This document shows, in pieces, positions 11,443 to 43,480 of a DNA stretch of 64,000 bases. Each line of letters starts with the position of its first letter. The stretch's first letter is position 1. The stretch comes from an uncultured Coriobacteriaceae bacterium (GTDB lineage: Bacteria > Actinomycetota > Coriobacteriia > Coriobacteriales > Atopobiaceae), in contig CAOJNB010000001.1 in the NCBI GenBank assembly GCA_948439405.1, positions 1 to 64,000 of the forward strand, given 5' to 3'. The position numbers were made by a program, and so were the translations under genes. The notes below the pieces were generated by a model. That model worked only from the letters and a program-made list of their open reading frames with translations, did not search any database and was not told where the DNA came from.

Positions 11443-11679
11443 CTAGCGGCGCGCGAAGTAGTCGATGATGTCGCCGGACTCGTACATGGGCTCGCCGTCG
11501 ACGAACAGGCAGGGCACCTGCACCTTGCCGCCCACCCGCAGCAGCTCCTCGCGGTTCGCGGGGTCAGCGGTGATGTCGGCGTGGGGCACCTCGATGCCGT
11601 TCGCGGACAGGTAGTCGTCGACCCGGCGGCACCACGGGCAGCCGGGCATGACGAAGAGCTTGTAGACGTGGTCGGCCAT
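11443..11679 (-). CDS. Glutaredoxin-like thiol-redox protein
   Basis: A 78-residue thioredoxin-fold protein starting MADHVYKLFVMPGCPWCRR, with the CPWC active site near residues 14-17 and the cis-proline in KVQVPCLFVDG followed by the GSH-site-like SGDIIDYF. The ATG at 11679 was chosen over an upstream in-frame ATG at 11745 because the thioredoxin fold begins there and a GGGAGG-type RBS precedes it. A substrate or reductant cannot be named; with the CPWC site it may act on disulfides or glutathione-like thiols, or be the mycoredoxin-type partner. It is probably co-transcribed with deoC. Confidence 0.8.
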   Translation of the reverse strand: MADHVYKLFVMPGCPWCRRVDDYLSANGIEVPHADITADPANREELLRVGGKVQVPCLFVDGEPMYESGDIIDYFARR

Positions 11680-11802: not shown

Positions 11803-12068
11803 CCTTGGCAGGCAATGTCGCCAAGTGCGGCGACCGACGCGACCGCTTGGCAGGCAATGTCGTTAAGTGCGGCGATCGACGCGATCGCTTGGCAGGCAAT
11901 GTCGTTACGTGCGCCCCCGAACGGAGCCACGCGACGTCCAGATGCGCAGAATCCGCCGCACTTGGTGGCAATACGTGGCAAAGCGGCGCCGCACGTGGCG
12001 CACTTGAGGGGGTTTCCTGCCACGTGACCTCTCAGACGAGCGCACTTGAGGGGGTTTCCTGCCACGTG
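11803..12068 (+). repeat. Intergenic array of about six 42-bp-period units, three in each orientation
   Basis: Direct units beginning TTGGCAGGCAATGTCG start at 11805, 11847 and 11889, exactly 42 bp apart; the remainder of each unit reads AAGTGCGGCGA then GACGCGA with only C/T changes. From about 11952 the same element recurs inverted: units ending at 11981 (GTGGCAA), 12023 and 12065 (CTGCCAC) are again exactly 42 bp apart, and the last two share a 29-bp identical block (11998-12026 and 12040-12068). The 734 bp between the glutaredoxin and phnD starts hold no credible gene. The same family occurs at 43304-43480. The frame is not kept between copies, so it is not a coding repeat. Confidence 0.85.
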
Positions 12069-12413: not shown

Positions 12414-13490
12414 ATGCAGAACACGAACATGTCCCGTCGCTCGTTCCTCGGCCTTGCCGGCGCCGCAGGCGCGGTCGTGGCCGGCCTGGGCCTGGCGGGC
12501 TGCAGCTCGGGCGACGACGCGGACGAGGCCGGCAGCGCCGCCTCGATCGACAAGATCACCATGGTGTGGCTGCCCAACGAGTCCGCCGCCGAGTTCGACG
12601 CGGGCCGCGAGGAGTTCGGCCGCGTGCTCTCCGAGTACGCCGGCGTCGAGGTCGAGCTCATGACCACCACCGACTACAACGTTGCCATCGAGGCCATCGC
12701 CTCCGGCGAGGCCCAGATGGCCAACCTGGGCGCCGAGGGCTACATCCAGGCCCAGCAGAAGAACGAGAACGTCCACTCCCTGTTTACCACCGCCGACACC
12801 AACGGCACCCTGGACAACGCCAAGTACTACAGCCGCATCGCCGTGCCCGCCGACGAGCTGGCCGACTATGAGGACGCCGAGAGCCCGACCGGCTACTCGA
12901 TCGCCAACATCAAGGGCAAGCGCATGAGCTTCGTGAGCCAGACCTCCACCTCCGGCTTCAAGGTCCCCTGCAACGCCATCATGGAGGCCTTCCCCGAGGA
13001 CGTCACCTCCACCGACGACCTCGCCCAGCCCGGCTTCTTCAGCGAGGTCCTCTTCGGCAACTCGCACCCCGGCTCCTGCGTCAACCTGCTCCAGGGCGAC
13101 GCCGACGTGGCCGCCTTCGACGACATCGACGTCGACATGTACCTGAAGGTGCCCGAGGGCGAGCGCGACGAGGTCAACCAGCCCGGCAACGTCTACGGCG
13201 TGGCCGACGGCGCCGAGCAGCCCTTCGACCGCGTCCAGGGCGCCGAGTTCGGCATCATCCAGTCCACCCCGGTCCTCAACGGCCCGATCGTCTACAACGC
13301 CGAGGTCCTGCCCGAGGACGTCAAGAACAAGATCCTCGAGGGCATGACCTCCGAGGACGTCGCCAACAACGAGCAGCTCTTCGCTCCCGAGGGCGCCGAG
13401 GACACCGGCTGCATCTGGAGCAAGGAGGACACCTCCGGCTTCATCGCGGTCGAGGACGAGTGGTACGACCCCATTCGCGAGCTCGCCTAG
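12414..13490 (+). CDS. phnD: Phosphonate-binding lipoprotein PhnD
   Basis: A 358-residue ABC-transporter binding protein. Tat-type motif SRRSFLGL and lipobox LAGCSS (cysteine near residue 30) predict Tat export and lipidation. The mature protein has the PhnD/phosphonate-binding family pattern: VWLPNESAAEF, a middle MANLGAEGYI, KGKRMSFVSQTSTSGFKVP near residue 165 (ligand-contacting Ser/Thr run) and PVLNGPIVYNAEVLPEDVKNKI. It delivers phosphonates, or possibly phosphite or phosphate esters, to PhnE. It heads an operon running to 23666. GAGGGAGAG lies just upstream of the ATG. Confidence 0.92.
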   Translation: MQNTNMSRRSFLGLAGAAGAVVAGLGLAGCSSGDDADEAGSAASIDKITMVWLPNESAAEFDAGREEFGRVLSEYAGVEVELMTTTDYNVAIEAIASGEAQMANLGAEGYIQAQQKNENVHSLFTTADTNGTLDNAKYYSRIAVPADELADYEDAESPTGYSIANIKGKRMSFVSQTSTSGFKVPCNAIMEAFPEDVTSTDDLAQPGFFSEVLFGNSHPGSCVNLLQGDADVAAFDDIDVDMYLKVPEGERDEVNQPGNVYGVADGAEQPFDRVQGAEFGIIQSTPVLNGPIVYNAEVLPEDVKNKILEGMTSEDVANNEQLFAPEGAEDTGCIWSKEDTSGFIAVEDEWYDPIRELA

Positions 13491-43232: not shown

Positions 43233-43303
43233 GGCCAGGCGGCGGCGCCCCGGCGCGACGGTTGCCAACTTATGCCTTCTTGTGCGTGCTTTTTTCGGAG
43301 GCG

Positions 43304-43480
43304 TTGGCAGGCAATGGCGTTAAGTGAGGCGCCTTCCTGCTCCTTCGAGCGCCCCGAGGTCGAAAATCCACCGCACAACGGGCCCTTTCCTGGCAAAGTC
43401 ACGAGGTCTCTCGCGCACTTGGCGGCATTGCCTGCCAAGGCGTTCGCGAATCCGCCGCACAACAGGCCCTTGCCTGGCAA
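43304..43480 (-). repeat. Second 42-bp-period repeat array, four units
   Basis: One direct unit begins TTGGCAGGCAATGGCG at 43304. Three inverted units follow, ending CTGGCAA at 43396, CTGCCAA at 43438 and CTGGCAA at 43480, exactly 42 bp apart; their other ends read CCGCACAACGGGCCC, GCGCACTTGGCGGCA and CCGCACAACAGGCCC. Same family and period as 11803-12068. It fills most of the 332-bp space between the convergent WecA-like and ferritin genes; the rest (43233-43300, 43481-43564) contains only the ferritin terminator. Confidence 0.85.

Follow-up and report, generated by a model that had tools for sequence, protein, structure and literature searches.

Intergenic repeat families of bacteria are usually palindromic elements of the REP type. 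Sites of a different build are found at the ends of Tn7, Mu and IS21, where each end carries two or more asymmetric sites of about 22 bp, in inverted orientation, that are bound by a two-domain protein. In the lambda-type attP intasome, arm-type sites lie on either side of a core that must bend, and in AraC looping and ParR/parC, in-phase direct repeats in two clusters are combined with DNA looping. For REP and REPIN, we follow the published definitions (PMC3116915, PMC3733652).

The arrays described here were found in a stretch of 64,000 nucleotides from an uncultured Coriobacteriaceae bacterium of the Atopobiaceae (the window), and a literature search, largely outside subscription journals, found no published description of such arrays. 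Like REP, BIME and REPIN elements with their RAYT transposases (PMC3116915, PMC3733652, PMC2817692), they are intergenic, consist of short units in opposite orientations and are species-specific; they also occur in many copies per genome, possibly in several families per genome, with no target-site duplication seen here. Unlike REP and REPIN, whose unit is an imperfect palindrome, the longest perfect stem is 2-4 bp in five consensus units, the units were not found beside RAYT-type genes, and PF01797, the REP transposase family, has no match in two array-bearing genomes, the host genome (G000, 87% complete) and the complete G114. On these two findings, palindrome and RAYT, membership of the REP/REPIN class was rejected. 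Further differences from this class are the rigid spacing (40-42 bp), the number of units (4-6 or more) and the retention of loci while the motif changes. Unlike the ends of Tn7, Mu and IS21 and the MITEs derived from them, no transposase or target-site duplication was found for the arrays, their units are constrained at fixed loci and their centre measures only 43-111 bp. They differ from lambda attP in having about 10-30 dispersed copies per genome, with no integrase linked and no rearrangement seen at the compared loci, and from AraC and ParR/parC in being tied to neither one promoter nor one plasmid, with no common function among target genes.

Arrays in the host genome

A first-pass annotation of the window had described three direct and three inverted copies of one element with an exact 42-bp period, lying between divergent glutaredoxin and phnD genes. 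Both the arrangement, with 24-bp units and 42 bp in every same-strand step, and the location, by Pfam, were confirmed (Table 1). In sequence the inverted units depart slightly from the forward ones (TGGCAGGAAACCCCCTCAAGTGCG). Sites with three or fewer mismatches number 10 in the window, compared to 0.24 expected from shuffled sequence, and none of 100 shuffles reached 10; a second array (43263-43479) accounts for 4 of these sites and adds one weaker unit. The annotation had further held that coding frame is not kept, for which the period is no argument, 42 being a multiple of 3, while the non-coding nature of the array stands, since the units lie on both strands, the spacers are free of constraint and a reading frame that is conserved was not seen. 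A promoter-like signal was sought at this array and none was found.

Table 1. Units of the two arrays in the window, with the genes flanking the first.
Feature	Position	Strand	Observation
Flanking gene, glutaredoxin (context)	11443..11679	-	Pfam PF00462, E 4e-15
Forward unit +2	11806..11829	+	0 mismatches to TGGCAGGNAANNNNNNNAAGTGCG; model R1 25.8 bits
Forward unit +1	11848..11871	+	0 mismatches; 42 bp after unit +2
Forward unit +0 (innermost)	11890..11913	+	1 mismatch
Centre, 43 bp	11914..11956	.	Equal length in the host's ten arrays; sequence unconserved except unit tails
Inverted unit -0 (degenerate)	11957..11980	-	3 mismatches; model R1 18.7 bits
Inverted unit -1	11999..12022	-	0 mismatches
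Inverted unit -2	12041..12064	-	0 mismatches
Flanking gene, phosphonate-type substrate-binding protein (context)	12414..13490	+	Pfam PF12974, E 1e-35
Second array, forward unit +1 (weak)	43263..43286	+	In register, 42 bp before unit +0
Second array, forward unit +0	43305..43328	+	1 mismatch
Second array, centre, 43 bp	43329..43371	.	
Second array, inverted unit -0, TGCC...TTGTGCG subtype	43372..43395	-	3 mismatches; model R1 E 5e-5
Second array, inverted unit -1	43414..43437	-	0 mismatches
Second array, inverted unit -2, TGCC...TTGTGCG subtype	43456..43479	-	3 mismatches; model R1 E 3e-5

Across the host genome (1.54 Mb in 34 contigs), the unit model R1 found 51 units, all inside ten intergenic arrays, and one stray weak match besides, while the reversed unit pattern, used as a control, had no matches. 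The unit can be written TGSCAGG[AC]A[AG]N7[AT][AT]GTGCG, and the conserved text extends as TGSCAGG[AC]A[AG]...C[GC][TC][CT][AT][AT]GTGCGG, the remainder of the 42-bp period being near random. Geometry is invariant: neighbouring units on one strand are 42 bp apart in all 32 pairs, and in all ten arrays the first inverted unit follows the last forward one at a step of 67 bp. Units are conserved and the spacers of different arrays are unrelated. One array that is split between two contigs (end of C9, start of C19) was counted once; assembly breaks inside arrays also occur in a related genome (G124, contigs C1, C2, C6 and C22), probably because of the repeated, inverted structure.

Had the units been absent elsewhere and unconserved in relatives, the first-pass annotation would have read them as a chance local duplication; the profile search beyond the locus gave instead the ten arrays above, in a layout that recurs in relatives. 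In favour of a functionless array made by local tandem duplication and inversion, some forward repeats within one array are near-identical, spacers included (W1, C9), but ten arrays share one geometry although their spacers are unrelated, and other species have this layout too. This explanation is left with a negligible chance, and the genome-wide search refutes it. A CRISPR array was likewise rejected, given two opposite orientations at ten loci; no cas genes were recognised on inspection of the translations of the ordinary neighbour genes.

The first-pass annotation had also named a structured RNA, and such a structure, or paired hairpins in transcripts, is in our judgment highly improbable. 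The overall imperfect palindrome folds somewhat better than shuffled sequence (z -2.2 on the forward strand, -1.5 on the reverse), but this is expected from inverted repeats alone, and left and right spacers are non-complementary in most arrays (mean 52% within arrays, 41% between). Two unit subtypes exist, TGGCAGG..AAGTGCG and TGCCAGG..TTGTGCG, whose linked changes are not base-pair compatible; the covariation analysis that had been proposed found no compensatory changes, the strongest linkage within the unit (G3/C3 with A18/T18) being non-Watson-Crick. Rfam gave no match in the window's array region, and its sole weak match, beside another array, fell below the family cut-off.

The genes adjoining the host arrays are ordinary and functionally unrelated, and arrays are found between convergent, tandem and divergent genes, which makes a classical operator or a dedicated terminator unlikely. 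Arrays often start about 20-40 bp past a stop codon, but a terminator role was rejected because gene orientations are mixed, especially in relatives.

Arrays in related genomes

A search of 60 relatives with the exact host motif returned no arrays and only chance single matches, and among the family's 139 other genomes model R1 gave one weak single match. The layout of forward units, centre and inverted units recurs, with other motifs, in one other genus of the family, Thermophilibacter (g4). When phnD loci were scanned without a preset motif, Olsenella uli An733 and Thermophilibacter provencensis (Atopobiaceae) proved to have such arrays, built from a different motif. No array was seen in 184 kb of a congeneric genome (G001), where about one was expected, nor in three further genera at 200 kb each. 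In a viral collection searched with four motifs there were none or single matches per contig, which we read as chance, and the array sequence was not found in phage and plasmid collections.

Each Thermophilibacter motif is common to one or a few genomes, and a few genomes have a second motif. M1, GCAAAAN4CGYTCGTGTGATG (GCAAAA...TCGTGTGATG), has 53, 47 and 40 units in G036, G138 and G134, with no matches to the reversed patterns; M2, GCAATCANNGGGATAGTGYGAA (GCAATCA..GGGATAGTG), has 45 units in G117 and 58 in G124; M4, GCAAAAN5CTTCRRTCCAT, has 123, 70, 65 and 18 units in G121, G131, G127 and G004; and M3, GCAGTTTGGGCCTTCGNYRCACG, forms two arrays within 200 kb of G114. Of 96 same-strand pairs listed for the M1 and M4 genomes, 95 are spaced at 40 bp. 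Forward-to-inverted offsets cluster near 114, 124 and 136 bp for M1 and M4 (113-116, 123-127 and 136) and at 116 and 126-127 bp for M2, so that centre length varies in steps of 10-11 bp, or one helical turn. Phase concentration of the offsets at 10.5 bp is R 0.84 (n=32) and 0.90 (n=23), values that include orthologous arrays, whose points are not independent. The same step separates the orthologous pair L122/L116, where the offset is 116 bp in one species versus 127 bp in the other, 11 bp apart. Gene orientations beside the arrays are mixed in these relatives too.

A loose AT-rich asymmetric stretch is present in the centre of many M1 and some M2 arrays and is not found in the 43-bp centre of the host arrays. 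A conserved centre core (CAAAANSCCWGTTG-like) was considered and rejected as too loose, 17 of 28 arrays having it with up to 2 mismatches. In T. provencensis (L036), near phnD, an IS110-family transposase gene (395-1480; Pfam Transposase_20 and DEDD_Tnp_IS110) lies inside an array centre, between units at 145-206 and 1787-1848; it is absent from the orthologous array of O. uli An733 (L035).

Conservation and motif turnover

Arrays of G117 have counterparts at orthologous loci in sister species, several with flanks about 90% identical or more. In nine aligned orthologous pairs, identity is 94% for units (672/716), 81% for spacers, 75% for centres and 89% for flanks; the unit value is biased upward, since only arrays that fit the motif in both species were chosen, yet units still stand far above spacers and centres. 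An internal deletion has left one array as remnants in the comparison of L142 with L134. We regard the arrays of the compared species as behaving like constrained, positionally stable elements with a changing recognition code.

Six loci bear an array in both M1 and M2 genomes; their flanks can be aligned on at least one side (69-93% identity), the arrays themselves cannot. At the DAHP-synthase locus, 9 of the 14 species compared have an array, in at least 7 motif versions and with a reduced remnant in G004, and the other 5 have no array or something else. We take the sharing of loci by different motifs as the probable result of motif change in trans with the loci kept; alternatively, arrays could have been replaced at favoured spots. 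Between the host and Thermophilibacter, shared array positions are limited to the phnD neighbourhood, which was the bait of the search, and one doubtful case, so loci are not kept between genera.

A foreign-type array in G111 suggests introgression, since its segment is 95.8% identical to G117, whereas the DAHP-synthase gene is 87% identical. Upstream of DAHP synthase in G122 (L149), GCAAAAAAGTACCCAACA-like copies occur in a different arrangement that is not the usual array.

Proposed protein docking

The ten host arrays, taken with the arrays of like design but other motifs in relatives, point to a family of putative protein docking sites whose recognition code changes between species. Our main reading, to which we assign a probability of roughly 0.6, is that the arrays are multi-site docking platforms for a sequence-specific DNA-binding protein acting in trans, which assembles into a two-armed, helically phased complex. 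The motif, its geometry and phasing, the constraint on units and the turnover of motifs at loci that persist are observations; a binding protein, its looped assembly and a function in the cell are inferred. A protein encoded elsewhere in the genome would dock on each array. It, or a fixed pair of domains, would carry two DNA-reading parts, as suggested by a non-palindromic unit of 22-25 bp whose two conserved blocks are separated by about two turns. Copies of this protein would sit on one face of the DNA at two or three units, each four helical turns from the next, and the oppositely oriented set would occupy the other arm, so that the arms point at each other; the DNA of the centre would then bend and the arms meet in one looped complex. 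Between species the specificity of the protein would drift and its roughly 50-120 sites follow, with the result that motifs differ while spacing and, within Thermophilibacter, loci persist.

Repeated binding of a protein along one side of the helix, another suggestion of the first-pass annotation, is well supported at the level of sequence by the exact, indel-free spacing, the phased centres in relatives and the constraint on units and not on spacers. In four arrays the left spacers are inverted copies of the right ones, exactly or nearly so, which counts against docking. No trans-acting protein was identified in this analysis, and since the genes adjoining the arrays share no common function and their orientations are mixed, no cellular role follows; chromosome organisation, also named earlier, is a possible candidate.

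A more far-reaching proposal is that about 10-30 two-armed docking stations are maintained chromosome-wide by the host and served by a fast-evolving protein, whose specificity would have been rewritten several times within one genus, with about 50-120 sites changing in step while loci and helical geometry were kept. This we advance tentatively and consider less likely than not. If true, such co-evolution of docking stations would be a bacterial counterpart of the concerted cis-trans co-evolution of a genome-wide binding system. The interest of the arrays lies in the combination of non-palindromic sites with a rigid, helically phased, two-armed geometry, in which the motif turns over between close species and positions persist. 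Were a host protein responsible, the species of gut Atopobiaceae would form a natural series in which the joint change of a DNA-binding protein and its dozens of sites could be followed, and would also provide a chromosome-wide complex for study.

A possible mobile-element origin and multiple array families

The chief alternative, partly compatible with protein docking, is a mobile-element origin. The arrays would be miniature non-autonomous elements of REPIN or MITE type, the units would be bound at the element ends by a transposase or recombinase supplied in trans, and the rigid spacing would serve the synapsis of short-element ends. The intergenic scatter and inverted ends fit such an origin, as do a copy number of 0 to about 30 arrays per motif and genome, the occurrence of several families in one genome, and the loss of arrays at orthologous loci. 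Against it, flank repeats are no longer than in random pairing in three families, and on this lack of target-site duplication a MITE assignment was rejected; eight RAYT-type loci examined had no good unit match, and the PF01797 result above weighs in the same direction. Furthermore, loci are long kept, arrays are lost through deletions within them, and constraint on the units acts at each locus separately. A search for PF09299 (Mu-type transposase) found no match in 12 genomes, the control genomes being negative too. We consider this origin rather unlikely. If a mobile-element protein were responsible, the arrays would represent a further class of repeats, one able to spread with no target-site duplication and, it seems, with no RAYT. 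Several Thermophilibacter genomes (G117, G124, G139 and G111) have 4-6 divergent Y1 (RAYT-type) transposase genes.

The evidence that bears most on this alternative comes from G113, in which 400 kb gave 23 detector matches, mostly arrays of at least four families differing in motif and geometry (A, 41/46/41; B, 41; C, 42; D, 40/124/40). Family A, GGGTTARAAMTACCGCRTCGTCCC, forms 13 arrays of three or four units in the 400 kb (L302, L326, L327, L328). Three of its array pairs are 91-96% identical inside, with a left-flank identity of only 33-53%, and in the pair printed in full the match ends at the outer unit edges. Near-identical interiors in unrelated left flanks imply that arrays can be copied, and these apparently copied arrays are the strongest evidence for a mobile-element origin. 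For a comparison with MITEs, in which copies with similar interiors in unrelated flanks are expected, the evidence is divided: such similarity was seen in these three pairs, and spacers of the host arrays are unrelated from one array to another. Family B, CGTCCCRGAATCGGCGANGTTCCC, makes longer arrays, of eight units at most, spaced at 41 bp apart from 46/31-bp steps about the centre (L306, L308, L321, L329). A third family, GCTTARGAAATCGGGGTTGTTGTAG, occurs at L302 6690-6950, L305 6250-6520, L307 12005-12260 and L329 17695-17960. Family D lies at a locus common with M1 genomes, families A and B lie off the M1 and M2 loci, and G113 is without an array at the DAHP locus. To judge from their differing geometry, the four or more families of this genome look more like repeat-element families than one host system.

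Two further observations concern G113. The central text of one array of the third family, CAAAACGCCTGTTG, is also present in the centres of unrelated M2 arrays. In addition, a short motif, GTTCTTCTCGGCG / CTTCTCGCC, is met repeatedly in the spacers and flanks that belong to several of its array families (for example at L306 17946-18000) and may be a further repeat.
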